Positions 23,522 to 51,964 of a stretch of DNA of 64,000 nucleotides are shown piece after piece. The notes below the pieces were generated by a model. It ran no database searches, was not told the DNA's origin, and saw nothing but the letters and a program-made list of their open reading frames with translations. Each line of letters begins with the position of its first letter. The stretch's first letter is position 1. This DNA comes from Neoarius graeffei (taxonomy: Eukaryota > Chordata > Actinopteri > Siluriformes > Ariidae), in NCBI RefSeq assembly GCF_027579695.1, contig NC_083586.1, positions 6,692,001 to 6,756,000 of the forward strand, given 5' to 3'. The position numbers were made by a program, and so were the translations under genes.

Positions 23522-24525
23522 TCAGTGATACGGCTTCTCTCCTGTGTGAAGGCGCTGGTGTATTTGGAGATTACTCTGCTGAGTAAAACTCTTCCCACAC
23601 TGTGAGCAGTGATACGGCTTCTCGCCTGTGTGAATGCGCTGGTGTATTTGAAGATTACCCTGCTGAGTAAAACTCTTTCCACACTGTGAGCAGTGATACG
23701 GCTTCTCTCCTGTGTGAATGCGCTGGTGTCGTTGGCAAGCACTCTCTTGAGTAAAACTCATTCCACACTGTGAGCAGTGATATGGCTTCTCTCCTGTGTG
23801 AATGCGCTGGTGTTTTCGGAGATGACTCTGAAGAGTAAAACTCTTCCCACACTGTGAGCAGTGATATGGTTTCTCTCCTGTGTGAATACGCTGGTGTATT
23901 TGAAGGTTACTTTGTTGAGTAAAATTCTTTCCACACTGTGAGCAATGATACGGCTTCTCTCCTGTGTGAATGCGCTGGTGTTTTTGGAGATCACTCTGAC
24001 GAGTAAAACTCTTTCCACACTGTGAGCAGCGATACGGCTTCTCTCCTGTGTGAATGAGCTGGTGTGTTTGGAGAACACTCCGATGAGTAAAACTCTTTCC
24101 ACACTGTGAGCAGTGATACGGCTTCTCTCCTGTGTTAATGTGTTGGTGTCGTTGGAGAGCACTCTGTTCAGTAAAACTCTTTCCACACTGTGAGCAGTAA
24201 TTTGGCTTTCCTCCTTTGTGACTGCACTGGTGTGTCTTGAGTGCATTCTGATGACCAAAACTCTTTCCACAGTCTGAGCAGCGGTGAATTCCCTTCTGTC
24301 TGTCATTGTGAGAAATGTCAGAACTGAGAGTATCAGTTGATGTTGGCGGACTACTTGAGCATTTGGAGGGGATCTGAAGCTCATATTTGGTCTTTCCTGA
24401 TTCCTGCAGTCTCACATACTCTTCATAATGGCATCTCTGTACGTGTTTGTCGAGGTAAATTTGAGATGCATAGGAACGAGGACATGTGGAGCAGGAAAAC
24501 ACTTGCAGCAGAACGTTCTTTATTT
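23522..24525 (-). CDS. prdm9: PRDM9-like gene, terminal exon E: C2H2 finger plus zinc-finger array
   Basis: The exon begins after a strong acceptor (TTTTTTCACTTCTCCAG, intron side of 24526). Two bases complete a Glu codon with exon D, then [14 protein letters not shown] opens. First comes the isolated finger typical of PRDM9 after SET (CSTC...HVQRCH), then a linker of about 50 residues, then nine tandem C2H2 fingers of 84 bp (CSQCGKSFT...[11 protein letters not shown]). The first two array fingers are less regular: one has HQCSH spacing, and the next has its last His replaced by Asn (HQHIN). Helix positions -1/3/6 read H-A-T, E-A-R, H-V-T, R-D-K, Q-N-I, L-H-K, Q-A-R, Q-N-I, Q-N-I. A TGA (23522-23524) replaces the first Cys codon expected for another finger. 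The array would bind DNA sequence-specifically. Confidence 0.93.
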
Positions 24526-24649
24526 CTGGAGAAGTGAAAAAACAAAAAATATCAGAAATTTAACAAAATGTAACATGATGATAAAATGCGACAACACTAA
24601 CCCAATGTAAGGGAACATTTTTACTGAACCTCAAACATTCAAGATTCTA
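24526..24649. other. Intron edge next to exon E
   Basis: It holds the polypyrimidine tract and acceptor of exon E on the minus strand. Nothing else seen. Confidence 0.5.
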
Positions 24650-25721
24650 CATGAATGAAGACGAGAACATGCTGAAAACAAGAGGGCATTGCACCCAGGG
24701 CCAAGCCTTTATCCCCGAGTAACAGTGGCCAGGACTGATGTGTGTTCCAAATTTCATGAGTTTTTCAGCAATGGAATCATTACTGTCCTGGTCCAAATGG
24801 TGGTGCTACACAAGAAGCTCACTTTGGGCATGGGGATATCATCAGAACCCTGATGTCTTATAACCTGTGAGGTTTTAGCTCTATCAGGCAATGCATGATG
24901 AATTTATGACATGGACAGGTGAAACTATATACCGGACAGAAGTCTCAATGACACACCTGGGGTCAAGCCTCTATCCATGAGTACCAGTGGCCAGGACTGG
25001 CGATATGTGTACCAAATTTCATGAGTGAGTTTTTTGGTAGTGGAATCATTACTGTCCAGGTCCAAATGGTGGCGCTATACCAAAGGGTCAAACTGCGCAT
25101 GTGGATATCGTCAGAACCATCATCTCATATAACCTGTGAACTTTTAGTCATATCAGGCAATGCATGGTGAATTTGACATGCTTCCTGTTCGTGGGGCATA
25201 AATTTATTGTTTCGCCATTTCAACATCTTGCAAGATATCACAAATCCCTTTGTAACTTAAAATCAATAACATCTTGAGATGATGTATACCAAATATGGTA
25301 TGAATCCAACAAACCGCCTAGGAAGAGTATATAAAAATGTAATGCGTGTTTTGGCAATGGAGTCATTACTGTCCATGTCTAAATGGTGGCGCTATACCAG
25401 AGGGTGTCTTTGGCAGGCCTTTAAATTACACCTTGGCCAGGCCGTTTAATGGTGTGCCCAAATTAGCGTCCCCAAATTAATCAAGGAAAAAAGGGTGCAT
25501 CTTTATCACACCTTGATTGTTCCGATTTCCGATCAAAACAATTATTTCCAAAATTGACCGAAAATGTCAAGCAAGCAACGGAACATTACCTATAACCCAC
25601 TCAGAAAGGTACCAGTCTCTTTCCTGATTGGCGGAAGTTGGATTCCCGAGGTTTGATTGGTTAAGGCATCTGCCATTGACTCATATGCTAGCGTTTCTGC
25701 TTTGATTTTCTGGAAGCCACG

Positions 25722-25940
25722 ATGCCGCGAGGACGGCCCATTACTACAGGACGCTCACACAACAAGCAAAGCGACACTTATGAGAGCCGCCGTCTGGCAA
25801 GGCTTCAGCCTGAAAGCAAGAAACAAACTGGGCCTTTGGACCGATTTTTAAGTGCAAGGCAAGGCTCATCAATTACAACACTACCACTCCCAACAGCAAG
25901 CGTGTCCAACTGCAACAACGAGACTTCAGGAGATGACAAG
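25722..25940 (+). CDS. Exon-like basic frame in the unclassified transposon
   Basis: ATG at 25722 begins MPRGRPITTGRSHNKQSD, and the 73 codons run to a good splice donor (GACAAG/GTGCGT) at 25940. The start is Arg-rich, and the middle has QTGPLDRFLSARQG. I do not recognise the family. It could be the first exon of the element's own transposase, with the rest deleted. Confidence 0.4.
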
Positions 25941-26692
25941 GTGCGTCCAATAACAACTCCTTCCTTTGTTTACATTGAAAACAAAAGAAATTTGCTGTTG
26001 TCATTTTATTATAATATATATCACCAGAAGTCTATTAATAGACTTCTGATATCACACATCATCTATGAAAGATGAAACCTTGGAGAAACTACTTCGGATA
26101 CAGCTGTTTCCCCTTTCACTAGAGGACAAATTCGTGGAGGAGGTGGTCAACATATTTGACACTAAGTTCAATAAGGACAGACATGTAAAATTACACTAGA
26201 AGTCTGAATGAAATGACAGATCGGGTTGTTTGAACACTGGCAGATACCATATGATAGTCTTTCAATTGACCTACAGCACTGCCATAGTTAAATCAAACAG
26301 GCTTAGTACATAATAGCATACATAGGCTGTGTTGGGTTAGTTCAGCAATAGACTTGTACATGTGTTTGCGAGTCTAATGTTCATAATACTCATACTAAGG
26401 AGATTTTTGTTTTATGTATTTTGGGCATATTGTTTACTTTTTGTTCACTGCTCCAGTTGCAAACCAGTGTTTCTTAGCATGTTTTATCTTTTATTTATTG
26501 TTCATGAGATATAATCATCTTGTGCCAAATATTCAGCATTCTGTATGAGACTCATACTAAGGAGATTTTTGTTTCAGGTATTTTGGGCATATTGTTTACT
26601 TTTTGTTCATCATTCCAGAAGCAAACGTCAGTGTTTCTTAAACCTGTTTTATATAAATTTACTTTATAGTTCATATGATCTACCGTATTTTC

Positions 26693-28574
26693 CGGACTAT
26701 AAGTCGCACTTTTTTTCATAGTTTGGCTGGGGGTGCGACTTGTACTCTGGAGCGACTTATATGTGAAATTATTAAACACATTATTTTATAATTTCACATG
26801 TTCGTTATTTTCACACTGACAACCACAAGAGGGCGCTCTAGGCTTGTGTACCTGTACCTGCTACTTCTGTACCACTGAAAATTTTAAATTTCAACATTAC
26901 CAGTAACTTATAAAGACAACTGAGAAGGGCTGAAAAAAAATGCCATCAAAAAGAAAATCATATTCTGCAGATTACAAGCTGCAAGTAGTAAAATATGCAG
27001 CCGAAAACGGTAATCGAGCAGCAGAAAGAAAGTTTGGAGTGAGCGAGAAACTTGTGAGGGACTGGCGAAAAGCGGAGGTTACTCTTACTGCAATGAAGAA
27101 AACAAAAAAAGGCTAATCGCGGGCTAAAAGCTAGGTGGCCACAGCTAGAGGAACGAGTTTGCACATGGGTGCTTGAACAACGTGCTGCCGGGAGAGGCTT
27201 GCCAACAGTGCAGTTGCATCTCCACGCCCAGGTAGTTGCCAAGGAGATGAATATAAATGACTTTGCGGGAGGACCTTCTTGGTGTTACCGCTTCATGCAA
27301 CGCAACCGCCTCTCTATCAGAGCAAGGACAACGATGTCCCAAAAACTGCCAGCAGACTTCCAAGCCAAGGTCGACAGTTTCCGTGAGTTCGTTGAAAAGC
27401 ATGTAACTGAGCACAACGTGACACCGGATCATATTATTAACATGGATGAGGTCCCCCTCACGTTTGACATTCCCATGGGCCGAAGTGTCGCAGAGAAAGG
27501 GCTAGAGTGTGAATACAGTAACAACTGGTCATGAGAAATCACACTTCACAGTGGTGCTGGCATGTTGTGGAGATGGATCAAAATTGCCACCAATGGTCAT
27601 TTTCAAACGAAAAACCATGCCAAAAATCCAATCCCCCTCAGTTGCCGTCGCAGTGAATGAGAAAGGGTGGATGGATCAAGAAATGATGAACTTATGGCTT
27701 ACGAAGTGCTACACTAAGCGTCCGGATGGCTTCTTTAGAACGCGCAAAGCCCTGCTTGTGATGGACAGCATGCGAGCGCACATCACGCCACAGTTCAAAG
27801 ATAAATTAAAAGTTTTCAACTCCATACCTGCCATCATCCCTGGAGGCTTAACCAAAATACTCCAGCCACTTGACATTTCTGTGAACCGGAGCTTTAAGGC
27901 AGTCTTGCATAACCTGTGGGAGCAGTGGATGATGGATGGAGAGCACAGCTTCACGGCAACCGGGAGAATGCGCCACGCAACTTTCCTGGAAGTCATTGGA
28001 TGGATCGACAAAGCATGGGCTTCAGTGACAACAGAAACCATCCTGTCAGGATTCAGAAAGGCCGGAATAATTGGAACTGCAACTGATGACGAGTCTGATG
28101 AAAGCGACGCGGAAGAGGAAGCGGTGCTTCGTCTACCTCCGGAGTTGGAGGATTTGTTTAGAATTGACACTGAGGATGAAGAATTCAATGGATTTAGTGA
28201 TTTGGAGTGAGATTGATGGTTTGGCAAACTTGTTAGCATGTTCTTTATGCTATAGTTATCTGAATAACTGTTAATATGTTACATTAACATACCAGACACG
28301 TACTCAGTTCATTGTCTATGCGTCATGTAGCTGAATGTGTTACATTAGCATACCGTAACCCTATTCGGCCTGTTGTTCTCTAATCCATTATTATTTTTAA
28401 TTGCCTTTCAAGATGAAATGTCTGTTCTTGGTCTCGGATTTTATCAAATAAATTTCCCCAAAAAATGCGACTTATAGTCCAGTGCGACTTGTATATGTTT
28501 TTTTCTTCTTTATTATGCATTTTGTGGCTGGTGCGACTTATACTCCAGAGCGACTTATAGTCCGAAAAATATGG
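26693..28574 (+). mobile_element. pogo-like transposon, nearly complete (1882 bp)
   Basis: The inverted ends are CCGTATTTTCCGGACTATAA and, from the other side, CCATATTTTTCGGACTATAA, followed by GTCGCAC/GTCGCTC and repeated GCGACTTATA motifs. TA flanks both sides (26691-26692 and 28575-28576). It holds a full-length but frameshifted transposase. Confidence 0.93.
26940..28210 (+). pseudogene. pogo-like transposase (CENPB-type HTH plus DDE), two frameshifts
   Basis: It starts at ATG 26940 (MPSKRKSYSADYKLQVVKYA) with a first helix-turn-helix (NRAAERKFGVSEKLVRDWRK). A one-base shift in the A-run near 27105-27115 leads to the second DNA-binding part (WPQLEERVCTWVLEQRAAGR). The catalytic domain follows: IINMDEVPL (first Asp, about 27445), a second shift near 27505, LLVMDSMRAH (second Asp, about 27760) and GGLTKILQPLDISVNRSFK (third Asp, about 27860). 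An acidic C-terminus (DDESDESDAEEE) ends at TGA 28208-28210. Only two single-base shifts separate it from a full frame, so it looks younger than most elements here. Related domesticated genes (POGK/JRK/CENPB type) exist, but this copy has terminal repeats. Confidence 0.92.
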
Positions 28575-29836
28575 TAATCATCTTGTTGTGCCAAATATTC
28601 AACATTCTGTATGAGACTCATACTAAGGAGATTTTTGTTTTAATGTATTTATCGCTACGCTCATTCGCGCAGTCGCTTCGCTCCTTTAGGTTACACTAAT
28701 TCGCTCCCAAATTAGTGTAATCTAAAGGCCTGTTTGGGCATGTGGATATCTTCAGAACAACGATATCCTATAACCTGTGAAGTTTGAGCCATATCAGGCA
28801 ATGTATGGTGACTCACTTCCTGTTTGTGTGGTGTAACATATAAATTCATTGGTTCGGCATTTCAACATCTTGCAACATATTGCAAATCCCTTCGGAATTT
28901 AACATCAGCAACATCTTGCCATTATGTATACCAAATATGGCATGGATCCAACAAACCGCCTAGGAGGAGTTTGTTAAAACATAACGTGTCAAAACGCACA
29001 AAACCAAAAATCTCACTTCCTGTTGAGTATGGCTGATGCAATGTACAGGGAATTTTGTTCGTCTCAGGGCACTCCAAACACCTACCAAGCTTGACAAGGA
29101 TAGGTCAACCTATATACCGGGCAAGAGTCTCAATGCCATATGGGGGCACTTTGGATTCCCCCAGAAACACCTGGGGTCAAGCCCTTATGGCTGAGTAGTG
29201 GTGCGCATGACTGACGTTTGTACCAAATTTCATGAGTTTTTGAATATGTACAAGTTGTCAAATCTGTATTTTTGAACTAGGTGGCACTATGGAGTTAAGG
29301 AAGCCCACCTAGACTAATGTACCATATCACCTCAAATTGCATCCTAGGACAAATATATGTGCAAAATCTCATGAGTTTTTAGCCTTTGTAAGCCCCTCAA
29401 AACAGCACGAGAATATTTCAAAATCCCACATTCCATCCAACATGGCTGACTTCCTGTTGGGCAGAGTCAAATACAAACAAGTGATCTTTGTCCTACATCA
29501 CAAGAGTATCAATCAGACCAAATCTCGTGCCAATCCGAGCAACTTCATCTCAACCACAGCTTGTTCTCGGGGGCGCTATAGAGCTCCAGGACCACGCTCA
29601 GTCCCTTGCTCAATGTAACTGATTTTATGCACATTTGATCAGCGTACCAAAATTTGAAAGTTTTTGAGCATCGCAAGTGCCTCAAACATGAGTTTTTGCA
29701 TGGAGAAAAAAACATAATAAGAAGAACGAACGTATTATTGCACCTACGGCTCGGGCAATAATAATAATAATAATAAAAAACAGGACGAAAACAATAGGGT
29801 GTTGCACCTATGGTGCATCGCTCGGGCCCTAAAAAG

Positions 29837-31916
29837 TTTGAGGACTAAGATATAGCAGCCTCTCCCTAGGAATACTGGTAGATTCAATAAGGTGCTGGAG
29901 CAGCAGCTATGCACAGCACTGGCCATAGCCCAATGGGTCTGAGTGACCAAGGGGGAGTTGTTGCTTTCTGTTTGATATAATGTCAATAAGGCAAGCCTAG
30001 CCTTATTAACAGCTCATCTAGGATTGAGAAGGAAATTCAGCCCTAGCATTCAAGGTTTTGAAAGATACAACAATGGGCCTTATTTATCAAGCTGGATAGT
30101 AGATTTATTTGCAAGTAGTTTCTAGTAGCATTTACACAAGCAAGTCTGTATTTTTTCATATGGATTAGGTTGTCACATTTAGAATGCTTATTAATTTCAA
30201 TTACACACAAATTTAATGAAATGAAATTGTGGGATTTTATGAAACCCAGTTGATTCATATAAATGTAATTGATGAAAGAAAGAAAGCCAACATTCATAAA
30301 TTAAAACAAAGAAGTTATTTAATTTAAGAAAAAAAAAGGTAGGCTTATAAAAAGGGACATGCTGCAACAGTTCAGATGGCATTCAAGTACTGCAGCAATA
30401 TAGGAATTTCCTTACTGCAGTATTTCAAGAATGCCATAGTGTGATTTGTCATAAAGCAAACCAAATCTCCATGTGTTTAATTATTCATTCATCAGATGCT
30501 ACTTGTTCCTTAACATATTTAAGTTCTTCAGCTGCAAGAGTTTAAGGAGTTATATAACCATTGTATAGTATAATAGTTGATGGGTTTGACTGACATCTGT
30601 ATTAGCCAATTAACAACGTTGCCTGGTTAAATGTGTTTTAGTCTCTAAACAGACCACTACAAAAATGTGTAACTTTAACCCTCTGGGGTCTGAGGGTATT
30701 TTCTGGCACTCTAATGATTTTGTCTGCATGCTGCACGTGTGTTCAACTAACTTCTCTCCAGCCAGCTGATTGTATTACACTGAAGGTATAATATGCCCCC
30801 CGTCCCACCGTGTGTTTCTGTAATATGGGGGAAGTCTGACAGCATTATCCTATGTTGTGCGTTTGCTGTGATAGAGCATGTGTTTTTTTTCCCCTAATTT
30901 AGCCATGGCCAATTCCCACCCATCAGACTGCTCTTCAGCATCACATAACAGCTACCAACCAGGGAGGGCTAAGGTGATCATGTGCTTCCTCCAAGACAAG
31001 TTACACCAGTTGACCGCATCTTTTACTCATACATCATCAGGGGTGGCAAAGTACACTCAGAGGGAAGCCCAATCCACTCACTTCCTATTGTGTTCACACG
31101 CACCCATAACTGGCTAGTGTAATTGATGGCAGGGAACAGAGCGCATGCCATCTCGCCCACCCAGAGAGCCCAGACAATTTTGCTCTCTTGAGCTCCCAAC
31201 CACAGATGACTGTGGCATCATCAGGATTCAAAAGTGGCATTTTATGAAGACTTGGAGTGGCATCTGGATGATGGGGAAGACACTTTTCTGTTATGCTACT
31301 GTATGTGGCTAAATGTATGCCACAGGGCATACATTTTACGCTAACCTCTGGTTAAATTGTGCATGATGAAGAAAAATACAACAGTATTTTGTGGTTTACT
31401 ATATATTCAATCAATTAACCCTAGAGATGGGTTATGATTTTCAAATAGTCATTAAAATATCAAAATAATAGTTTAGTTTGTTTATGTGACAATCCTCTTT
31501 TTCTTGCTTTGAAAAAAAGAAGCTTCCCTGTGTGCTGCACTTAGTGCCCACAATTATCATGACATCCCCCCCCCCCATTTTAGTTTCGTGGGCTTCACCA
31601 AATGCAACTCATCTGGGGGTGTGCTAATTTAGGGGTGATTTGCATTCATCAACATGCACTTGAATATAAAGCAAATCAGCCTTTTGTAAATCTGAGATTT
31701 TTATAAAAGCCAAGTCTTCATAAAATGTTAACAAATGGCCAAATGTAACCAGACTCTTCAAAAGCCCAAAAAAAGTATTGATTTTATCCACAAGTGTTTT
31801 TTGATCACATCCACAAACGATTTCAAGATGATACACTGCATTTATTGAAGAACTTTCTTCATCATACATACACTTGTGAAATTCCTCTCTGCATTTAACA
31901 TATCTGAAGCAGTGGA

Positions 31917-32185: not shown

Positions 32186-32330
32186 ACTAACTTCCGGTTC
32201 CGGCTGAGTGAACGCTGGCGCAACTGGCTGCCGCTGCTCGCTGGCAACTTCTAACCACTTTTAAAGTGATTTTAACTTCTCACCTGGCTCTGCTTGCCCT
32301 GGTGTCCAAGGGACTGGGTCCCTGTGCACA

Positions 32331-33317
32331 ATGTGGTCCGATATGATATATATCTGGTCCATGATTATCTGGCCTCTCCTGTTGCTGGTCCACCAACCCG
32401 CGACTGGTTTGCTCCAGTACTCAGCTGCGGAGCTTCTCCGGCTACATTTCCACCTGTCTGCGCCTCCGCTGGCTCTACTTGACTTTCATCCGGACATCGC
32501 CTCCCAGCCTCGCCGGAGATACATTCACCGTGGATCCCACCGGAGCCTTCATCAAGACACCTCGACAACAATAAAATCCATCTGGTCCATCTCTCATCGC
32601 CCTCCACGAAACACCGGTCGAGTTGTTGACCACAGTGTGCTAGCCAGCCCAGCTCGGTTGGCTAACATTGCTGTCATAGGTGACAACACCACTGTCAACT
32701 TCGGTCTACTCAACATCCGCTCCCTTACGAGCAAAGGGTCTCTCATCCAGGATCTCCTCATTGACCGTAAGTTTGACTTTCTCTGTTTAACTGAGACATG
32801 GCAACAACCTAATGACTTTTCCCAACTCAATGAATCAACTCCTCCGGGGTTTGTTTACATCTGTCAACCTAGTGGCTCCGGCCGGGGAGGAGGTCTCCCA
32901 ATAATTTACCGCGATAAACGGAAAGTCTCGCCAGTGTCTCGACCTGCCTTCAGCTCCTTTGAATTCACTGTATGTCAACTGTCTGGATCTACTCCCACCA
33001 TCATTGCAACTGTCTACCGCCCCCCCAAACCAAACAAAAACTTTTTAAATGATTTTGCTGCTCTGTTGACACACCTCTCCACTCTCTCACCAAACATTAT
33101 TTTGTTGGGAGATTTCAACATCCACATGGACAATATCAACAACACTCTTACCAGAGACTTTTCATCCTGCCTTGAGAGTTTTGGTTTTCAGCAGCACACC
33201 AATTTTCCCACTCACTCCAAAGGTCACATCTTGGACTTAATTTGTTGCTCTGGTATCTCCCCCCTTGACTGTACAGCAGATGAACTCCCTATAACTGACC
33301 ACTTCCTCCTCGTTTAA
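32331..33317 (+). pseudogene. LINE ORF2 endonuclease part
   Basis: Starts at ATG 32331 with a hydrophobic N-terminus. The AP-endonuclease core follows: GLLNIRSLTSKG, LCLTETW, GRGGGLPIIYRD, ATVYRPPKPNK, ILLGDFNIHMD, SKGHILDLIC and ITDHFLLV. All expected motifs of the CR1/L2 endonuclease, which nicks target DNA, are present including the DFN and DH pairs. TAA at 33315-33317 ends the frame immediately after the last motif. The linker to the RT continues in other frames up to 33960. Confidence 0.92.
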
Positions 33318-33329
33318 TACCAAACTCTC

Positions 33330-33956
33330 TCTCTCCACTACTAAGCTCCCTCATCTTATTTCTTTCCGTAATATAAAGGATATCAACTTGAATTCTCTCT
33401 CCTCTAGCACTGACTCCCTCTTGGACATTCACAATTTAACCACTCCGGAAGAGCTGGTCTCACAGTACAACACAGGCCTTCACACCATCGTTAATTCCCT
33501 TGCTCCACTAAAAAAACAGGTCTGTCTCCTTCTCCCGTTCTGCTCCCTGGTTTACACCTGAACTTCGGCTCATGAAAGCCAAAGGCCGACAACTTGAGCG
33601 ACTTTACAAGAAAACTGCACTATTTGTTCACAAAGACATGTACAACAATCATGTACTTCATTACAAGGACTGTATTGCTCAAGCCAAATCCAACTATTTC
33701 TCTGGTATAATCTGTTCTAACGAAGTTAACACCAAATCACTGTTTTCACTGCTCAAGAACTTCAGCCAACCCCCAGACTCCCTACCACCTCACCTGTACT
33801 CACCTGCTTTCTGTAACTCCCTCATGTCATTCTTTGCTGAAAAAATCCAAACAATTCACCAGTATCTCGATTCACAATCCACCCCCATCAGTTTACCTGA
33901 ACTTCCTCCACCCTCTCACTCCTCCTCCTTCCAGCTTCCCACCGCCTCATCCGTAA
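33330..33956 (+). pseudogene. LINE ORF2 linker between endonuclease and RT
   Basis: Broken frames include TGLHTIVNSLAPL and the long piece from about 33550 (MKAKGRQLERLYKKTALFVH to SLFSLLKNFSQPPDSLPPHL), as found between endonuclease and RT in CR1/L2 elements. It is cut by the hAT insertion at 33965. Confidence 0.8.
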
Positions 33957-33964
33957 GTCTAAGC

Positions 33965-35392
33965 CCTGGGTGCCCACTACGTCGATCGCGATCGACCGGT
34001 CGATCTCGAAGGCAGGGATGGTAGATCTCATGATTGATATGTAAATATTAATATATTTGTTATGAAATTAAAAAAAAAAACGTCGTGGTCATTTTTACAT
34101 GTAAACAAATTCGCTTTTTCCCTGAAGCGAAATGTCAGCCAAGCGCTGCGTCAAAAAAAATGTTACATTAGGTTACCATGACAACCAGTAAAATGAAACT
34201 GCTGGTTTCAAAGATGCAGCGCCGTGATTTAGGAAACTTCCGAAACCTCGCCTCGGAGCTGGAGATGCAAGGGAGGGCGTTTGCGCAACTTAACAGTGCG
34301 CGCTACACTGAGCAGATTGAAATTCTCCAGTCAGAGTTTGAGAAGCGATTTCAAGACTTTGCTTTGCTCGAGCCACTAGCTACATTCATGCGCCACCCAT
34401 TCGGGGAAGATACTGAGGTGGATTCCCTCGCCTCAAAAGTTGCGGCACTGTTTCAGCTGAACACGTCTGCCGTGCAAGACGAGATGCTGATGCTGCAGTC
34501 TGACATCGAGTTGAAGTCCAGGGCGCATGGGCCGTTTTGGAATTTACTCACGGAGGCGAAGTACCCGAACATGCGGCAATGTGCCACCTCCTTAACCGCA
34601 TTGTTCGGCTCCACTTATTTGTGCGAGTCGGCCTTTTCGCATATGAAGATCATTAAGTCCAAATACCGCTCCAGTATGTCCGACGATCATCTCGAGGCCT
34701 GCTTGAGGCTCGCTACCAGCAGCTACTGTCCGGACTATGCAGCCCTCTCTGACTCCCTCCAGTGCCGATCATCATCGGATTAAGATCTGATTTAGGGCCT
34801 ACATCAGTATGCTATGTATTAATGTTGTGCTGTTGCTAAGTTCCACGGTTAAAAAAAAAAATTAAAAAAAATATAAAAGGAAAAATGTTTTTATATAAAA
34901 TTGTTGTAAATGTCAAATCTCTGTCTAGCAGGCTATACAAAAGTCAATTGATGTGAACAAAAATGTTTTGGGGTTTACAATGCCTGTCTGGATGCATTAA
35001 ACTTTTTTTTTCTAAACATAGCCCATTTTTTTTTTTTTTTTACAGTGGGCTTGTTTCATGTTTAATTAGTAGTTTGCGGTTTATAAAAGTTAACAGTGAT
35101 TTGAACAAAAATACGTTTAGGAGTACAAAGCTTATGCATTTAACATAATTTGAATGTAAATTTCAGTCACCTTTTTGTATGCATGTTTGCATATTATTAA
35201 ACAAATTGCATATGAATGTTTATAAATCAAAACAAGTGTCATTATTATTATTATTATTAGTAGTAGTAGTAGTAGTAGCAGTACTAGTAGTCATAGTAGG
35301 CCTAGTAGTGGTAACAACCTAGTCCGAGTAGATCATATTAACATGGTCATTTTAAAAGTAGCTCGCGAATCAAAATATTGTGGGCACCCCTG
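33965..35392 (+). mobile_element. Internally deleted hAT element (1428 bp)
   Basis: The ends are CCTGGGTGCCCAC and, inverted, CAGGGGTGCCCAC, with the perfect 8-bp duplication GTCTAAGC (33957-33964 and 35393-35400). Only the C-terminal part of its transposase remains. Runs of A or T and a TTA/GTA microsatellite (35238-35280) fill the 3' part. Confidence 0.93.
34178..34783 (+). pseudogene. hAT transposase C-terminal part with dimerisation domain
   Basis: 201 open codons. The first half is helical (QRRDLGNFRNLASELEMQGR, LNSARYTEQIEILQSEFEKR, FQDF). The last 90 residues are the hAT dimerisation region: FWNLLTEAKYPNMRQCATSL, FGSTYLCESAFSHMKIIKSK and RSSMSDDHLEACLRLATSS. The pattern is that of the ZBED5/FAM200/GTF2IRD2-like hAT branch. 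The BED finger and catalytic residues are missing, so this is a deletion derivative even though the piece itself is open. It could make a truncated dimerising protein if expressed. Confidence 0.88.
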
Positions 35393-35879
35393 GTCTAAGC
35401 CATCCACATGTCAGCTGGACCCCCTCCCCACTTTTCTTGTTAAAGCCTGCCTTCCTTCTCTGGTCCCTTTCATCTCTTCCATCATCCATTCCTCTCTTTC
35501 CACTGGAACTGTTCCTACATCCTTTAAGACTGCTGCAATAACACCAATATTGAAAAAACCCGGTGCAGAGCCTACCAATTTCAATAACCTATGCCCTATC
35601 TCTAATCTACCCTTCATTTCCAAAATTATTGAAAAAACAGTAGGTAATCAACTCCACTTCCATCTGTCTCACAATAACCTGTATGAACAGTTTCAGTCTG
35701 GTTTCCGTCCCGTCCATAGCACAGAAACAGCTCTAATCAAAATCACCAATGATCTCCTCATGGCAGCTGATTCTGGTTTACTCACCATCCTCATCCTCCT
35801 TGACCTGAGTGCAGCCTTCGATACCATTTGTTGCTTCACCCTCCTCAACAGATTAGCATCCATTGGTATCACTCACACC

Positions 35880-36470
35880 TAGCCTGGGCCCGCCCATCCT
35901 AAGCGTGATGCAACACGAGGGCCTGTTGCGAGCTTAGTCTGGCAAGGCAAGCTATCTACAGCTCTTCCAAGCTCCCGAAAAATCGGGAACCAATCAACTT
36001 TGAGCATCTCCAATGGCCCTGGGTAGAGGCGTGTTCAAGGCACTGACATAGTAGAACTGCGACCGGAAGCCATAGATTGTTTACAGAATCTATGCCGGAA
36101 GCGCTTCATTCATGCTTCCGCATCTATTACGCATAGATGCTGTATTGAAAGCATTCAACAGGAAGTTCTCATTGAAAACGGAGCAAAGAGCAGCCCTGGA
36201 GGTATTTATTGAAAGGAAGGACGTTTTTGCCTTGGTCCCGACCGGCTTCGGTAAGAGTTTAATCTACCAGTTAGCCCTTTCGCGTCGCATACGTCAGAGG
36301 AAAGAGTGATGTGATTGGTTTAAGCTTCGTCACAGCCTTTTCTGGCTTCGACCAGTAGCAAACTGAGGCATTTCAGGGAGGCGGGTCAACCACGGGCTCT
36401 GGGAAACGGTTGGGCTTAATATCTTGGCCAGACTAATAGCTCGTAGAGCTTTGTCGCGTTAGCCAGACTA
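35880..36470 (+). mobile_element. 591-bp DNA element with 9-bp target duplication
   Basis: The flank ACTCACACC is exactly duplicated (35871-35879 and 36471-36479). Short inverted ends are TAGCCTGG and, from the other side, TAGTCTGG. It contains a helicase-like fragment (36112-36309), so it looks like a deletion derivative of a larger element. The superfamily is not certain; 9 bp is longer than the 8 bp of hAT. Confidence 0.8.
36112..36309 (+). pseudogene. RecQ-like helicase N-terminal fragment
   Basis: 65 open codons containing LKTEQRAALEVFIERKDVFA followed by LVPTGFGKSLIYQLAL. This is the Q-motif-like region and Walker A (PTGFGKS) of a RecQ/DEAD-type helicase. The rest of the helicase is missing. 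It lies wholly inside the 591-bp element, so it is carried by the transposon and is not a host gene. Confidence 0.75.
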
Positions 36471-37680
36471 ACTCACACCCCCCTTGACTGGTTTAAATCT
36501 TATCTTTCCTGCCGCACTCAGTTCATTCAGCTTAAATCTTTCACATCCCACCCTTCCCCTGTCACTTCAGGTGTGCCCCAGGGCTCTGTCCTGGGGCCCC
36601 TCCTTTTCATCATTTATCTCCTTCCCCTTGACAACATCTTCCGTAAATATAACATCAGTTTCCACTGCTATGCGGATGACACCCAGCTCTACCTCTCCAG
36701 TAAACCCACTTCCTACCTTCCACCCTCCTCCCTTACTGACTGCCTAGCAGAAATAAAAATCTGGTTCTCCTCCAACTTCCTCAAACTAAACAGTGACAAA
36801 ACTGAGGTTCTCCTCATTGGCACCAAATCGTCACTATCCAAAATTGACAGTTTCTCTCTTTATATTGACAATTGCTCTGTCTCCCCCTCCCCACAGGTTA
36901 AGAGTCTGGGTGTCATCCTCGACAGCACTCTTTCCTTCCAATCCCACATCAATAACATTACCCGGTCTGCATATTTCCATTTACGCAATATCAACCGTCT
37001 CCGCCCCTCCTTTACTCCCCATGCCACTGCTATTCTTGTCCACAGCCTCGTCACTTCTCGTCTGGATTACTGCAACTCCCTCCTCTCTGGTCTCCCTCAC
37101 AAATCTGTCCATAAGATCCAACTGGTCCAGATTTCAGCTGCCCGCATCATCACCAGAACTCCCTCCATTCACCACATCACGCCCATCTTGCAGCAGCTCC
37201 ACTGGCTCCCAGTCAAGTTTTGAATTGAATTCAAAATCCTTCTGTTAACTTTCAAGGCCATCCACAACCTCGCTCCCTCATATCTGTCCGATCTCCTCCA
37301 TGTTGCCACTCCCTCTCGTTCATCATCTTCTATCCACCTGATTGTCCCCTCCGCCCGTCTCACCACCATGGGGAGCAGAGCTTTCAGCCGCTCTGCTCCC
37401 CGGCTTTGGAACTCATTACCTCCTGAACTTAGAAATATCAATTCCCTTCCACATTTCAAATCCTCACTCAAAACACACCTGTTCAAACTTGCTTTTCAAA
37501 TTTAATCACTGCACTGTCTAATTTTTAATTTTGAATTGTAACTTGTTTTAATGTTTTTTATTTGTAATTTTAATGTATGGTTTGTCTTTCATTTTTGTAC
37601 GGTGTCCTTGGGTGCTAGAAAGGCGCCTTTAAATAAAATGTATTATTATTATTACTAACTTCTACACCACCATGTTGCCC

Positions 37681-43331: not shown

Positions 43332-44924
43332 CAGTGCCTTGCAAAAGTATTCATACCCCTTGAATTTTTTCACATTTTGACACCTTACAACCACAAACTT
43401 AAAAGTTTTTTATTGAGATTTTTATGTGATAGACCAACACAGAGTAGCACATAACTGTGAAGTGAAATGAAAATGATAAATGGTCTTCAAAATTTTAAAC
43501 AAATAAAAATCTGAAAAACTTGATGTGCATTAGTATTCAGCCCCCCTGCGTCAATACTTTGTAGAGCCACCTTTTGCTACAATTACAGCTGCAAGTCTTT
43601 TGTGGTATGTCTCTACCAGCTTTGCACATCTAGACACTGAAATTTTTGCCCATTCTTCATTGCAAAATAACTCAAGCTCAGCCAGATTGGATGGAGAGCA
43701 TCTGTGAACAGCAATTTTCAAGTCTTGCCACAGATGCTCAATGGCATTTAGGTCTGGACTTTGACTGGGCCATTCTAACACATGAATATTCTTTGATCTA
43801 AACCATTCCATTGTAGCTCTGGCTGTATGTTTAGGGTCATTGTCTTGCTGGAAGGTGAATCTCCTTCCCAGTCTCAAGTCTTTTGCAGCCTCCAACAGGT
43901 TTTCTTCCAGGATTGCCCTGTATTTAGCTCCATCCATCTTCCCATCAACTCTGACCAGCTTCCCTGTCCCTGCTGAAGAAAAGCATCCCCATAGCATGAT
44001 GCTGCCACCACCATGTTTCACAGTGGGGATGGTGTGTGCAGGGTGATGAGCAGTGTTAGTTTTCCGCCACACATAGCGCCACACATATTTAGGCCAAAAG
44101 TTCAACTTTGGTCTCATCTGACCAAAGCACCTTCTTCCACATGTTTGCTGTCCCCCCTACATGGCTTCTTATGCCTGTCTTTCAACAATGGCTTTCTTCT
44201 TGCCACTGTTACAAAAAGGCCAGATTTGTGGAGTGTACGACTTATAGTTGTCCTGTGCACAGATTCTCCCACCTGAGCTGTGGATTTCTGCAGCTCCTCC
44301 AGAGTGATCATGGGCCTCTTGGCTGCTTCTCTGACCAGTGCTCTCCTTGCTCGCTCTGTCAGTTTAGGTGGACGGCCATGTCTTGGTAGGTTTGCAGTTG
44401 TGCCATACTTTTTCCATTTTTGAATGATGGATTGAACAGTGCTTCTTGAGATGTTCATAGCTTGGGATATTTTTTTATAACCTAACCCTGCTTTAAACTT
44501 CTCCAGAACTTTATCCCTGACCTGTCTGGTGAGTTCTTTGGTCTTCATGATGCTGTTTGTTCTTCAGTGTTCTCTAACAAACCACTGAGGCCTTCACAGA
44601 ACAAGTGTATTTATGCTGAGAGTAAATTACACACAGTAGGACTCTATTAACAGATTAGATGACTTCTGAAGGTAATTGATTGCACTAGATTGTATTTAGA
44701 GGTATCAGAGTACAAGGGGCTGAATACTAATGCACACCACATTTTTCAGATTTTTATTTGTTTAAAATTTTGAAGACCATTTATCATTTTCGTTTCACTT
44801 CACAATTATGTGCTACTCTGTGTTGGTTTATCACATAAAATCTCAATAAAAAACTTTTAAGTTTTTGGCTGTAAGGTGGAAAAATGTGAAAAAGTTCAAG
44901 GGGTATGAATACTTTTGCAAGGCA

Positions 44925-44983: not shown

Positions 44984-44985
<2 letters not shown>

Positions 44986-45620: not shown

Positions 45621-45879
45621 TTATTCTGTCCTTTTTTTGTTTTAAATACTGTCGGTGGAACATCTACCCGTTCTTTTGCAATTTAAGGTAGATGTGAAAG
45701 AAATCTCTCTCAACTCAAAATGTAAAAGCAGGTGACCGTGATTATGCGACATATCCTAGAAGCATGTTGATGGATAGTAAACTAATGTGGCGAGTGTGCA
45801 TGGAAGGAAGAATCATGAGACAGAGATCTCTGCTTTTGAAGATGAATATATCTGTCACTGCACATTGTACAATGAAATT

Positions 45880-46975
45880 GGATGTCATCCTACCAGTGCA
45901 ACATCTGCTTATTAAAAATAATAAATAATGAAGAGGACTGGTTTAACATATGTGATGTACAGCGAACCACCACCAGCTCCAGGATGTGGAAAGAATTTTG
46001 CTGGAAAAATGTGATTAGATTCTTTATCACTCCCAAAACAAAAAGCAAATTTTCAAATACACAACAAACATGCTGGAGCAGACCGTTGTGGGGAGCAGAA
46101 TGCAGGTCACAGTCATGTATTTTGGGAATGTAATAAAATGATTAATTATTGGAATGATGTGTGGGTGGGCATTAAAACAATTTTGGGATACAAGCTACCA
46201 AAGTCATGCGAGATACTATACCTGTGTAATCTGACAAAGGACACCGTACAACATCTCATCTCATTATCCCGAGCCGCTTTATCCTGTTCTACAGGGTCGC
46301 AGACAAGCTGGAGCCTATCCCAGCTGACTACGGGCGAAAAGCGGGGTACACCCTGGACAAGGGCTGACACATGGACACAGACAACCATTCACACTCACAT
46401 TCACACCTACGGTCAATTTAGAGTCACCAGTTAACCTAACCTGCATGTCTTTGGACTGTGGGGGAAACCGGAGCACCCGGAGGAAACCCACGTGGACACG
46501 GGGAGAACATGCAAACTCCACACAGAAAGGCCCTCGTCGGCCACGGGGCTCGAACCCGGACCTTCTTGCTGTGAGGCAACAACGCTAACCACTACACCAC
46601 CGTGCCGCCCCACCCTACAACATGAAGACAGATATTTAGTAAAAGTTCTGCTGGCTGCGGCCAAGGAGGCAATCACCAGGAAATGGCATAGAGCGGACCC
46701 TCCCACTCGGAGGAACTGGCTGGGCACAGTCGACGAGATACTCAAACTGGAAAGACTCACATATATATTGAGACTCCAGCAAACAAAATTTGATAAGAAA
46801 TCTGAAAAATGGACCGAATACAAATCTCAAAACAGAGGCACCACTGGAAACTTTGATGTCGAAGATATTTGAATATTATTTTTTAAGATCATGTATCCCA
46901 CTGGCACTGCATTGTGTTCTGTATTGTTCTATAATGAAAATAAAAATTTGAGTCATAAAAAAATAATAAATAAAG
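45880..46975 (+). pseudogene. L1-type LINE ORF2 C-terminus and 3' end, split by a SINE
   Basis: The frame MWKEFCWKNVIRFFITPKTK, then NTQQTCWSRPLWG and a shifted HVFW-like part (INYWNDVWVGIKTILGYKLP), then after the SINE YLVKVLLAAAKEAITRKWHR and ADPPTRRNWL, stop TGA near 46871. These follow the C-terminal pattern of L1-type ORF2 (CW..CG...H.FW.C, then AK..I...W). A 3' UTR with AATAAAAATTTGAGTC and an A-rich tail ends at 46975. 5' truncated. Confidence 0.82.
46255..46611 (-). repeat. SINE-A copy in the L1 fragment
   Basis: 12-bp duplication ACCGTACAACAT/ACCCTACAACAT (46243-46254 and 46612-46623, one difference). It lacks about 17 bp in the body (GACAAGTCGCCAGGTCATC region). Confidence 0.9.
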
Positions 46976-47142
46976 AAATATGTCCATATATATAAACTCC
47001 TAAAAAAGACATACACACAAGGCATTCTCACACTGCTGTTTTTTAATTGCACAGTCCCTTTAAAACAAGCAGCATTTAATGCAATTATGGCTCTTGGGTA
47101 GATGTTTTTCAGTCTATTTGTCCGTCTCTTAATTGACCTGAA

Positions 47143-48190
47143 CTATCTGCCCAAGCACAGCAATTCAAACTGAGAATGTCCGGGGTGGGATGGATCTTTT
47201 AATATACCCTGGGTTCTTTTGAGGCAGCAAGAACTGTAAAGCTCTTCCAGGTAGGGGAGAGGGCATCTGATCTGTGTGGTGGTGATGAACCTCTGGAGCG
47301 CTTTCCTCTCTGCTACTGTGCAGCTAGCAAACCACACACTGATGCAGTATGTAAGTATGCTCCCTATGGAGCAACAGTAGAAGCACACAAGCAGTGTTTG
47401 AGTGAGGTGGTTCTTCCTGAGGATGCTCAGGAAGTAAAGTCTCTGCTGTGCCTTATTTATCAACTTGTGTGGTGTTCATGCTCCAGGTCAGGTCCTCCTC
47501 TATGTCCAACCCCAGGAACCGGAAGTCCAGGACCCTCTCCACACATTCCCCGCTGATGAGAATAGGCTAAATGTCCATTTTCTTTTTCCTCAAGTCTATG
47601 ATCAGCTCCTTGGTTTTGGTGGTGTTGAGGACCAGGTTGTTGGTCTCTGCACCACCCAGACAACTGCTCCGACTCGTCCTGATAAGCGGACTCCTTGCCC
47701 CCCCAGAGATGAGCCCCACTATGGTAATATCATCTGCAAATTTGATGATGCCATTACTGGAGTGGATGGGGTGCAGTCGTAAGTGTAGAGGGTAAAGAGT
47801 AGGGAGGCTCAGCACACAGCCCTGTGGGGAGCCAGTGCTAAGGCTGAGGAGATGTGGGGAGTGATCAGACAGGAAGTTCTTTATCCAGAGGCAGATGGAT
47901 TGAGACAGTCCCAGGTCTGTCAATTTGGACACCAGTCTGTGAGGGAGAATGGCGTTGAATGCTGAGCTAAAGTCCACAAAGGGCAGCCTAGCATAGCTCT
48001 CCTGCTGCTCAAGGGGAGTGAAGGCAGTGTGGAGAGTTGTGGCTATGGCATCCTCTGTAGAGCTGTTAGCTCTGTAAGCATACTGGTGTCTGTCTAACAT
48101 GGGTGGGAGGCTTGTGATGATGCGAGTCTGGACCAGTTTCTCAAAGCACTTCATGATGATGGGAGCAAGTGCCACTGGACAGTGGTCATT
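47143..48190 (-). pseudogene. LINE reverse transcriptase, C-terminal two thirds
   Basis: Upper frame (47567-48175): VALAPIIMKCFEKLVQTRI, LDRHQYAYRANSSTEDAIAT, LPFVDFSSAFNAI (first Asp) and SPQGCVLSLPTLYPL, then IIKFADDITIVGLI (FADD) and NLVLNTTKTKELIIDLRKKK. Lower frame (47143-47463): KAQQRLYFLSILRKNHLTQT, YCISVWFASCTVAERKALQR and LKDPSHPGHSQFELL. This is a CR1/Rex1-like layout. Several shifts and a damaged joint near 47464-47570. It lies in the exon B-C intron in the same orientation as PRDM9. Confidence 0.87.
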
Positions 48191-49087
48191 CAGGCTGCTG
48201 CTGGTCTTTTTTTGGCAGTGGAACTATGATGGAGGACAGGGTGGGATGGTGGACTAGAATAGGGACTGGTTGACTTCATGTAAAATCCTGTGGTCTGTAC
48301 ATAACATGGCTCTAGGAGTAATGTTTTATTTTACTACAAGATGCATGCCTATCAGAAACACTGGCCAGAGGTGATCAATTATTGCAGGAGTCTTGGTCAA
48401 GGTGGGTCATTGCTATTTAGCCTCTAATGCACTCTAAACTTAAACATTAACAGACCCATGAGCCTTTGCACTCTAGCAAAGCTCTGTGGAACTGGCAACA
48501 ACTAGAGTGACTACCTTTTCTAGTCGCTACAATAATCCTCCTCCCTGGACTTAAATTTATTTTCAAAATCAAATCGAGAATGGGATTAAAGGCCATTTAG
48601 ATAAAAAAAAATGGAAAAGTTCTAAATAAGTGACTACCTACAAACATTTTTAATTAAAAAACAATCGTTGTATTTAAAAAAAAAATACTATTTCATAAGC
48701 CTGTCTAAAAATGCATGGGGTTGCTTAAAATTCCACAGCATACTTCACTTTGTCTCACAGCATAAATCTAATCAACCCTCACCGAGCCGATGTTCTAATT
48801 ATATTTTGTTTGCATTTGTGAATTAATGGAAATGAAACAGATTGTGTAAAATGTCATACCAACTGCATACCCCAGCATCAAACCAACTCGCATAGTGGCA
48901 AATTTTGTGGCATCTAAAATTATCTGCTCGTTGGTGTAGTAACAAGTTTTATATTAACTTTAGCATTAATTATAGTTAACAGTATCTGTTCAGATCTTCT
49001 ACTGTCATGCTTCTCTGTTTATCCTCGAGATTTAGAAAAGAAGCAAGCTGAAAGTATGAACGAATAATTTCCTTGTTTTTTTTTGTG
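48191..49087. other. Intron, no feature seen
   Basis: AT-rich with A runs at 48601-48610 and 48676-48686. No gene. Confidence 0.35.
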
Positions 49088-49088
49088 C

Positions 49089-49168
<80 letters not shown>
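49088..49168. repeat. (GT)n(GA)n microsatellite
   Basis: Long compound repeat in the exon B-C intron, 460 bp from exon B. Confidence 0.95.
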
Positions 49169-49173
<5 letters not shown>

Positions 49174-49628
49174 CTACTGTTGTCGTGGATGCAGCAGAGT
49201 CAATGTAAAATTGGTACAGTTTCTCAGCTGCATTTGGGAAAACAAACTATGATGGAATGTTGATGGAAACTATGATGAATAATATCTTGTGTAATACAGG
49301 AAGCTGACCATGCAATTGGGGGGGGGGGGGATGGACCCATGTTGGTGACTACCTGGGCTTTATGTAATTTTTCATGAATATCTTAAAATTATACAATAAA
49401 TACATATTTGTTTGAGTATTATTCAGGTGTTACTCATATTTCTATTATTAACAGGTTAATTTCCATCACACTGGCTAAAAGAATCGATGTAGGATGGATC
49501 AAACTTGCGATTTACACAACTACTCCACATATCATTGGCAAGAAGAAATTTATATTAATTGGAGCTACCTTCACCTAGTTGTTACTTAAAAATATAAAGT
49601 CTTTATAATAAATTTATGACAGACTCAC

Positions 49629-49900
49629 AAGCGAGGCGTATCCACTATTCCTGGCTTCTTCTCTGGTTACCAGCTCTCCCTGGTAGGGTCCGAAGTGTGT
49701 ACCTACTGGAACAGTCTCCCCCTTATTAAACACTCCCAGTCCTGCATCAGGAATACTGGACTTCTTGATTTCTAGCCCAGGAGGAAGAGTTTGTCTGGTT
49801 CGGTCAGGGACTCCTATGAGAACAGGAGTATCTGGAATGAAGAGAGGCAGTCCATGAACCTCACATTTGTTGAGGAAGAAGGATTTGCAAACTTCACAGT
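49629..49900 (-). CDS. prdm9: PRDM9-like gene, exon B: zinc knuckle and first half of the PR/SET domain
   Basis: Strong acceptor (TTCCTATTGTTTTCTCTGCTCCCAG) above 49900; donor CTT/GTGAGT below 49629. Two bases complete a Tyr with exon A, then CEVCKSFFLNKCEVHG, the C-x2-C-x7-C-x2-H zinc knuckle that precedes the PRDM9 SET domain. TLPPGLEIKKSSIPDAGLGV, FNKGETVPVGTHFGPYQGEL and EEARNSGYASL are the SET N-terminal half. The Tyr of SGY corresponds to mammalian Y276 and is kept. 272 nt, ends on a codon boundary. No disruption. Confidence 0.95.
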
Positions 49901-50519
49901 CTGGGAGCAGAGAAAACAATAGGAAGAAATGAGGCCCAAAATGTGTGTGTCTATATTCAAGACCATATACAGTACATTAGTACAGTATAAAGATTATCCT
50001 AAGAAAGTTTGCCAGAAAGATTCACTGAGCATCTGGTTGAGACTAGAGGTGTCCATCAGGACCGAGATCTCACAGGACACAAGGTACATGAGCACAATTT
50101 TTTTTTATTTCATTGTGGGAGTAAACAAGTGGCCAGATATGAAGCTTGCAAAATAAAACAAATGTTCATTAACATAAGTGTGGCACTGCATGATGTACTT
50201 ACAGCATTCTGGTCAAGGTTGTTTTAAATTCAGCTACTTGTTTGCTTATCTTTTGGGAAACAGAATTTCCCAAATTTGTTAGGAAATAACATGCAGGTAC
50301 AAAAAAAACCAACAAAAAAACCCCCAAAAACACACACCTGTCCACACAGTAAGTAAATAAACAAACAGTCCCACACACATCTCGACTTGAACTTTGACAA
50401 TTCTGGCATTTCTAGATCTAGGTATTTTTCCCAGTGCTATACATCTAGGATTAATATTTAATTTTAAAAATTCATATCTAGTGCCAATTTAAGCATAACC
50501 AATTTGCTGAAAAAAAAAC
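49901..50519. other. Intron A-B, unassigned part
   Basis: Nothing recognised. A/C-rich runs near 50300-50335. Confidence 0.35.
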
Positions 50520-50645
50520 AACAACAGTGGACCCAGAGGAAACCCATGCAGACAGGGGAAGATCTTGCAAAACTTTACACACAGCAACCCGAACTCAGAA
50601 TCAAATCCAGGACCCTGGAGCTATGCCACTGTGACGCCACTAAAT
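50520..50645 (-). repeat. Diverged SINE-A-like fragment
   Basis: GTGGACCCAGAGGAAACCCA through CTGGAGCTATGCCACTGTGACGCCAC follows the SINE-A body and head layout but with many differences, so it is an older or sister subfamily. Confidence 0.5.
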
Positions 50646-51792
50646 CTGTATACAGATATTTGGATACCTGTCCATCACACCCATCTGTGCTTATTGAACA
50701 TCCCATTCCAGGGGCATACTGAGAGGTATTACTCTCTGTCCCCTATTAACCACAGCCAATTGGGGCCTTCTGCAAGCTGATGTATGTGGGGAAGAGAGCA
50801 CATAGCACTTTCCTCTGGGTGTGTTTTGCTATCCTGTGATGCAGCATGGGCTGAATTTGGAAAAGAGGGGGTTGATGGCTTCACATGTCTTGGAGGAAAC
50901 ATGTGTTAGCATTCACTCACCATGGTTAGAGAGACCTGGCTGGTGGGTGGATACTAGCAGGTGACCACACTGGGGAGAAGATAGGCAGGTGGGGAACACA
51001 CACACACACACACACACACAAAACAAAAAAAACAAAACAAAAAAACACCACCCCCATAATCTTCTAATATAGTGAAGACATTAGGACCCGTTTATTTAAC
51101 ATTTATGGAAGGAGACCCAGGTATCAGTCAGTAAATTTTCCCATGATGTTTTCTCTGCAAGTTTTCTCTGCCTTCAGGACAGAGGAGTTTGTGCTTTCTG
51201 GTTTCTCAGTCACACAACATGCATTTATTTATTTATTTATTGTCTCGAACAAAACACCGGAGTGGCTGGAGAGAATGACAGACATTCTGTAACATTAAAT
51301 GTAAACAGAAACAAATAAAACATGCAATGTGTCATTCATTAATACATGAAAAATTGTAATCATTGGCAAATCACTGTGGTATGAAGGGAATAATACACTT
51401 TGGGCTGTGCTGTTATACGGGGAAAAATTTTTTAAAAATCACCCGGCATAGATTTTTATATAACAGCATGACCAATCGTGTGTTATTCCAGACTTTTTTG
51501 TTCAGGTTAACATCTCTTTATAATGACTAATGTCTTTTAAGGAAATAAAAAAATATATATTTAGTTTCTCTCACTCCTTGCTACCATATTACACTCTCTA
51601 TAGACAAAGTTCGTGCTTTATCAATAAAAATATTAATTTCAAATTTAATTGTGTCATAATTTGTTGATAAAATAATCCGAGACTGAGGCTACATCCCAAA
51701 TGTACTGTATTGTACTTTTAGTGCACTAGATCATGTGGAGGGTAGAATAAACAGTGAATGTTACTGAGCACCAGAGTGGCCTGATGTCTTAC
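50646..51792. other. Intron A-B with simple and dispersed repeats
   Basis: 50690-50990 resembles the dispersed repeat at 30900-31130 (CAGCCAATTGGGGCC, CTTGGAGGAAACATGTGTTAG). (CA)n at 50999-51020, (ATTT)n at 51224-51240. No gene. Confidence 0.4.
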
Positions 51793-51964
51793 AGAGGTAG
51801 TCTTTATTGTCAGGATCTTCCACTTTAATGGAGAGAACTTCAGGTGGGTTACCGAGGTCGTCTCCATGGTTGTAGATTTTCAGCTCCAGTGTCTCCTCTT
51901 TCTTCACACAGACTTCTGACATCCCTCCACGTATGGATGTCTCCGTTTTCATGTCCTCACACAG
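51793..51964 (-). CDS. prdm9: PRDM9-like gene, exon A: acidic region before the zinc knuckle
   Basis: Acceptor-like TTTGATCTTTAG above 51964; donor CTCT/GTAAGA below 51793. The 57 codons read LCEDMKTETSIRGGMSEVCV, KKEETLELKIYNHGDDLG and ends EDPDNKDYL plus one base, giving DYL-Y-CEVC with exon B. Met codons at 51950-51952 and 51920-51922 could each start translation if this is the first coding exon. An upstream in-frame start is also possible, because the frame is open to the acceptor. No KRAB or SSXRD features. Acidic linkers of this kind precede the knuckle in fish beta-type PRDM9. Confidence 0.88.

Follow-up and report, generated by a model that had tools for sequence, protein, structure and literature searches.

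The DNA analysed here is a 64,000-nucleotide stretch of the genome of the ariid catfish Neoarius graeffei (contig C18, C18:6692001-6756000; genome of 2.34 Gb in 38 contigs), hereafter the window, in which a PRDM9-like gene occupies five exons (E1-E5) on the minus strand. E1 (51964-51793) encodes an acidic N-terminus with the ATG at 51952; no Pfam domain, KRAB and SSXRD included, was reported for it. E2 (49900-49629) encodes a zinc knuckle (CEVC...CEVH) and the first half of the PR/SET domain, with Tyr276 intact (FGPYQG) and GYAS in place of the GYxW motif. The middle of SET (IHKSMQCEEYIDAKREMHVNWMR) lies in E3 (38658-38591) and its end in E4 (38419-38241), where Tyr341 is intact and Tyr357 is replaced by Phe (LLVWFEEEY). 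E5 (24525-23522) encodes a proximal single C2H2 finger, a linker and a terminal C2H2 array, and ends with a TGA stop. Joining of the exons bore out exactly the gene structure proposed in a preliminary description of the window: all five acceptors are AG, all four donors are GT, and the codons split across the joins are Tyr, none, Arg and Glu. The frame is open for 560 codons, without stop or frameshift, from the ATG at 51952 to the TGA ending at 23522; the count of about 564 given earlier included four codons upstream of the ATG.

The gene is already an NCBI prediction. The Neoarius graeffei protein P0013, 'histone-lysine N-methyltransferase PRDM9-like isoform X2', matches the window model over 537 of 537 residues, the sole difference being 23 residues dropped through an alternative E2 acceptor on the minus strand, with the first base after the acceptor at 49831. 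Use of this acceptor removes the zinc knuckle and leaves SET in place. NCBI isoform variants such as X2 are built on aligned RNA reads. Taken alone, the window gene is an ordinary annotated member of its family. At 23530-23501, the TGA of its array falls within an apparent next finger (YH*SQSGKTF), and the arrays of two other copies, L023 and L024, stop at the same point of the finger.

Pfam analysis of the 560-residue protein identified PRDM2_PR (PF21549, E-value 2.3e-44, positions 2-121 of 123), SET (PF00856, 9e-8) and C2H2 families, and the best-matching solved structure was PRDM9 (4ijd, 1.7e-63), followed by PRDM11 (2.1e-38). The PR/SET domain is thus closest to PRDM9, with a zinc knuckle before it and a C2H2 array after it, and the order of zinc knuckle, PR/SET, single finger and array is the one originally described. 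Neither of the N-terminal domains of a complete PRDM9, KRAB and SSXRD, was found in the predicted protein (Pfam, E-value 0.001), which leaves room for an exon upstream of the model. A whole-genome search with Pfam families returned KRAB for none of 27 candidates and SSXRD for none of 17; the positive controls were also silent, so genome-wide absence is not established.

The three catalytic tyrosines of PRDM9 are Tyr276, Tyr341 and Tyr357, according to PMC5519329. The window protein retains the first two and carries Phe at the third. Its GYAS motif corresponds to Trp293Ser, the numbering being counted from Tyr276 in the structure alignment, and this change is common to the window and the subtelomeric copies L043-L046. 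Both substitutions had been overlooked in the preliminary description, as had a lost His in one early finger. Trp293 is intact in 121 of 122 homologues from other species (the remaining one is unaligned at this position), whereas 9 of 35 Neoarius clusters have lost it. Of the 122 homologues, 17 lack one of the three tyrosines or are unaligned at it; among the 35 Neoarius clusters, Tyr357 is changed in four and Cys276 occurs in five. We infer that Tyr357Phe together with Trp293Ser weakens the methyltransferase of the window protein. At the E2 sites of L043-L046 (C23), Cys replaces Tyr276 and GDSS replaces GYSW.

The preliminary description had recognised this as the only host gene, implying a singular locus, and that implication does not survive a search of the genome. 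A 29-base E4 pattern over the Tyr357 codon (up to 3 mismatches) matched 237 sites and an E2 pattern over Tyr276 matched 224, with 0 sites for the reversed-pattern control in each case. Intact copies elsewhere, which had been named as evidence against the locus, exist many times over, although the window copy itself is free of stops and frameshifts. The best-matching 100 sites of each pattern, which are not a random sample, were inspected: the 100 of 237 E4 sites, all exact matches, comprise 97 with Tyr357 and 3 with Phe (the window being one), and the 100 of 224 E2 sites (31 exact, 69 with one mismatch) comprise 57 with Cys276 and 43 with Tyr276.

Protein searches scored the best 150 of 273 (E2), 250 (E3), 2242 (E5) and 761 (PF21549) candidates, of which 149, 150, 150 and 148, respectively, were stop-free; these counts are skewed toward intact copies, as only the best-scoring candidates are included, and the PF21549 set includes a few other PRDM genes. 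Chaining of the E2, E3 and E5 lists gave 195 loci on 21 contigs, 101 of which, the window included, have E2-E3-E5 ordered on one strand; as the lists hold the best 150 exons, some loci are perhaps split or missing exons. The median span is 34 kb, and for the 157 gaps of less than 1 Mb the median spacing is 182 kb. The median E5 open frame is 519 residues long, with 4 of 150 below 250 (best 150 of 2242), and the longest (L055, C3:27450450-27455100) encodes 1494 residues with 50 C2H2 fingers. Of 87 E2 matches on contigs of known length, the outer 10% at either end holds 59 (20% expected) and the outer 20% holds 83 (40% expected), clustered matches not being independent. The family numbers more than 200 copies, mostly in blocks toward chromosome ends, and was probably spread by segmental duplication.

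Splice sites are preserved in the copies fetched for comparison, among them 20 stretches drawn from high-scoring matches. They were found for E2 in 11 of 11 (the window's own being one), for the E5 acceptor in 7 of 7, for the E3 acceptor and donor in 19 and 20 of 20, and for the E4 acceptor and donor in 20 and 19 of 20; the misses are L014 (E3 acceptor) and L026 (E4 donor, where the alignment is partial). The subtelomeric copies had at one point been taken for E3-E5 fragments, as suggested by the lack of an E2 near E4 in the fetched stretches except L026 and by few close annotated proteins. This idea was rejected because E2 lies further off, upstream of E3 by a median of about 25 kb (101 loci).

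In the window array, the longest contiguous canonical run is seven fingers, and one early finger lacks its last His (HQHINTGEK). The contact positions were taken to be -1, 2, 3 and 6. The statistic used, after PMC5519329, is the fraction of the heterozygosity among fingers that falls on contact sites (contact share); five Ictalurus punctatus proteins gave 0.29-0.36, a fair calibration against the published 0.25-0.32 for the alpha genes of that species (PMC5519329). The contact share was 0.514 for the window array and 0.45-0.80 for six other copies, namely five with the E5 start inside the fetched stretch (a sixth, L009, was left out) and the longest, L055. Control C2H2 proteins for which no PR domain was precomputed (n = 109) had a median of 0.283 and a maximum of 0.444, none reaching 0.45, and the window array (0.51) exceeds 109 of 109. 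For 70 fingers pooled from five copies, the ratio of nonsynonymous to synonymous polymorphism (pN/pS) was 2.13 at contact codons (-1, 3, 6) versus 0.61 elsewhere. High contact shares were also obtained for Electrophorus (0.56-0.63, two proteins), Lepisosteus (0.61), Clupea (0.66) and Salmo (0.45); PRDM9 is described as intact in electric eel and complete in herring (PMC8892340). As reported in PMC8892340 and PMC5519329, an unusually fast finger array is confined to species with a complete PRDM9, a rule that several Neoarius copies appear to break.

A distinct set of 10 intronless copies lies at C7:61.26-61.40 Mb (C7:61256451-61399663; L001-L008 were read), with open frames of 559-925 residues. 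The PR domain is near-complete within one exon and stop-free there in 9 of 10; in one of the two unread copies the PR match is interrupted by a TAG. In the eight read copies, the tyrosines and GYSW are intact, and pooled contact codons gave pN/pS 1.49 versus 0.53 elsewhere. The set is apparently a retrocopy that was later multiplied. It was considered as the 'true' PRDM9, an idea that was set aside: the catalytic residues are intact, but the contact diversity is ordinary (0.24-0.37, eight read).

Divergence between copies was compared as nonsynonymous (dN) and synonymous (dS) rates. Among 11 copies (L026 and L037-L046, L037 being the window), E2 has a mean dS of 0.231 and dN of 0.048, a dN/dS of 0.21 that indicates purifying selection on the family. 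Between the window and old paralogues, dN/dS was 0.17-0.25 for E2 (the intronless eight and L026) and 0.09-0.13 for E3 and E4 (five intronless copies and L026). Between the window and close copies, it was 0.26-0.58 for E2 (nine copies, L038-L046) and 0.5-2.5 for E3 and E4 (19 copies, L009-L025, L027 and L028), the latter on few changes. In E4 of 18 young copies, 9 replacement and 10 silent changes were counted (P 0.011), with shared changes counted repeatedly.

The single terminal array with a proximal finger is the architecture of the alpha class. In a SET tree rooted on Lepisosteus and containing no beta sequence, the window falls in a ten-member group whose nine other members are all Neoarius clusters (support 0.956); its closest neighbours include P0012, P0015 and P0017, which are clusters of the subtelomeric type. 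This group sits inside a 46-member group, mostly of Neoarius and Clarias (support 0.952), with an intermediate node at 0.195, and several deeper nodes are weakly supported. A phylogeny had been proposed earlier for placing the gene in the alpha or beta class; it groups the window with Neoarius clusters, and since no beta sequence was obtained, alpha versus beta rests on architecture. PR exons on C24, C21 and C20 were considered as beta genes and appear by eye to be other PRDM members. From its predicted protein, the window gene is assigned to PRDM9 by descent and to the alpha type by architecture, and is not a complete PRDM9.

Nine loci with a CW domain were found and eight were read. The CW exon of L052 (C13:45456150-45456550) best matches ZCWPW1 (2.5e-13); of the other compared CW exons, one best matches MORC3 and one KDM1B, and five were judged MORC-type by eye. 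No CW exon of the three compared, from the nine loci found, has ZCWPW2 as its best match, in line with PMC8892340, where ZCWPW2 is missing in the three Siluriformes species examined and Siluriformes are scored as a loss of complete PRDM9. The ZCWPW1-like exon coexists with no KRAB-bearing PRDM9 found in the Neoarius searches.

The exons lie among transposon fragments. A Tc1/Sleeping-Beauty-type transposase fragment (21328..21966, plus strand) lies outside the gene. The E4-E5 intron contains a Tc5/pogo-type transposase in two frames (27097..28210, plus strand), and fragments of a long interspersed nuclear element (LINE) endonuclease and reverse transcriptase with a hAT fragment (32265..37223, plus strand). 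Tc1-type transposase fragments (43551..44563, minus strand) occupy part of the E2-E3 intron; a DDE_3 domain was found by scan for 43551-44156, and the remainder was judged on its translation. Transposon-type domains were present in 10 of 10 other long open reading frames of the window (a chosen set was scanned). This agrees with the earlier description of a real host gene of PRDM9 type surrounded by transposon remnants.

In our overall reading, which we accept about as readily as we doubt it, the window gene is a PRDM9-alpha-type paralogue that acts as a finger-array DNA binder with a weakened methyltransferase, within a diversifying repertoire, and is not a hotspot selector. This reading starts from what was observed directly: how the gene is built and annotated, how many copies exist and where they lie, which residues are changed, and how diverse the contact residues are. 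The gene most likely encodes a sequence-specific DNA-binding protein in which the finger array is what counts, and the methyltransferase domain, weakened by Tyr357Phe and Trp293Ser, would be damaged or dispensable. By analogy with KRAB and FiNZ proteins, the family is probably a diversifying repertoire of DNA binders directed against repeats; binding targets and repression are surmised, and copy number and contact diversity are what suggest defence against repeats. A bolder and more tentative proposal, which could well fail, is that PRDM9-alpha, having shed KRAB and SSXRD, turned into a repertoire of more than 200 genes at chromosome ends; its catalytic residues (Tyr276, Trp293 and, in the window, Tyr357) would be eroding while its arrays reach about 50 fingers and diversify at contacts. 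This would be a third vertebrate genome-defence zinc-finger repertoire, derived from the recombination gene and carrying the fast-finger signature thought private to complete PRDM9.

Several observations weigh against these proposals. All three tyrosines are intact in 26 of 35 Neoarius clusters, and Tyr357 in 97 of the best-matching 100 of 237 E4 sites; given this retention, much of the family may be enzymatic still; ZCWPW1 seems to be kept, and PRDM9-type marks could perhaps still be read. The 109 controls come from other species and were selected by similarity, whereas the published test makes its ranking inside a single species. For the seven fingers of the window array, pN/pS at contact codons is 0.93, not above 1, versus 0.26 elsewhere. 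The 32 NCBI-annotated Neoarius clusters, the window's included, have a median contact share of 0.344 (range 0.231-0.587), and ordinary shares were obtained for the intronless C7 set (0.24-0.37) and for proteins of Clarias (11), Trichomycterus (5) and Silurus (3), at 0.23-0.34. Finally, the changes private to the window SET (E2-E4), relative to the copies sampled (18 for E2, 25 for E3, 28 for E4), number 13 replacement to 3 silent. Because these fit the neutral replacement share of 0.742 (P of 13 or more, 0.38), the window SET may be drifting as though neutral, with no visible constraint on its own branch, and may be in decay.

This last observation leads to a possible though doubtful alternative, in which the window copy is a recent duplicate in decay, brought along by duplication, unbroken so far and with no function of its own. 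It would account for the private SET changes, the substitution at the conserved catalytic position Tyr357, the Trp293Ser common to L043-L046, the finger without its last His, the transposons within the introns and the E3 and E4 dN/dS of 0.5-2.5 against 19 close copies. The open frame of 560 codons, with every site GT-AG, speaks for an intact gene, but is weak evidence of function, because the 3 silent changes on the window branch, over 113 silent sites, amount to 0.026 per site. In simulated neutral coding sequence (substitutions only, indels left out), the probability of no stop was 0.19, 0.09, 0.02 and 0.002 at 0.02, 0.03, 0.05 and 0.08 substitutions per site, so that neutral copies at the window's distance stay open in 9-19%. 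Against decay stand the E2 dN/dS of 0.26-0.58 relative to nine close copies, the contact share above 109 of 109 controls, and the label isoform X2, which implies at least one further modelled isoform. The earlier statement that the gene is under selection, argued from the broken state of everything else of similar age in the window, is not supported for this copy, although constraint is visible in the family E2 and in the window E2 against close copies.

It is improbable that the window gene is a working PRDM9 that marks hotspots through its own array. The PRDM9 order of zinc knuckle, PR/SET, proximal finger and terminal array, the contact-residue diversity like that of complete PRDM9 and the ZCWPW1-like exon would fit such a role, and the preliminary description had taken the domain order to specify the meiotic hotspot selector. 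Against this stand a predicted protein that has neither KRAB nor SSXRD (the genome search found neither, its controls being silent too), Tyr357Phe and Trp293Ser at two SET residues that nearly all relatives found conserve, the published loss of complete PRDM9 in Siluriformes, with ZCWPW2 missing in three species (PMC8892340), and the lack of a best match to ZCWPW2 among the three compared CW exons; more than 200 copies could also mean as many competing specificities. Partial orthologues without KRAB and SSXRD are argued not to direct recombination in PMC5519329 and PMC8892340. The repeat-rich region, with hundreds of near copies, might raise the suspicion that the exons are a product of chance or assembly, an explanation with next to no probability: it is refuted by five phase-consistent exons identical to an independent annotation and by 101 loci sharing the exon order.

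Fast fingers have been held specific to complete PRDM9 as the director of recombination (PMC5519329, PMC8892340). A family lacking KRAB and SSXRD but having fast fingers in several copies would separate this signature from complete PRDM9, and would allow a test of whether fast fingers are a sign of steering hotspots or of a conflict with repeats. The amplification of PRDM9-alpha in catfishes is already in print (PMC11600626); the scale of the family looks new, as does, from the arrays compared, its contact-residue diversity. Neoarius is unnamed in the main text of PMC11600626, and the zinc-finger survey PMC10547256 mentions neither PRDM nor catfish in its main text. Among the best matches in the open-licence literature, no paper joined Neoarius graeffei and PRDM9 (subtelomeric PRDM9 arrays were not otherwise searched), and matches for catfish PRDM9 expansion concern other subjects by title.

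Among known systems, the window gene resembles the PRDM9-alpha genes of Siluriformes (class I PR-SET in PMC11600626), which are KRAB-less, with SET on three exons and a near-intronless finger part comprising an optional proximal finger and one terminal array. That paper describes alpha as amplified in catfishes, the richest of the species it names having 34 annotated candidates, whereas about 237 E4 sites are present in the Neoarius genome. Unlike the alpha genes described in PMC5519329, none of which is reported there with such a change, the window gene has lost Tyr357. Teleost PRDM9-beta likewise lacks KRAB and SSXRD and has a changed catalytic tyrosine (PMC5519329), but its fingers form several short separated arrays, in contrast to the one terminal array of the window gene, and few species have multiplied it (PMC11600626). 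Tetrapod KRAB zinc-finger proteins and cyprinid FiNZ proteins (PMC10547256) share with the Neoarius family hundreds of copies and diversifying finger arrays; the N-terminal module of the Neoarius family is instead PR/SET, and its repeat silencing is putative. PRDM7 is also a PRDM9 duplicate with a Tyr357 substitution (PMC5519329); it is a primate gene that has lost its finger array, whereas the window gene retains its own.

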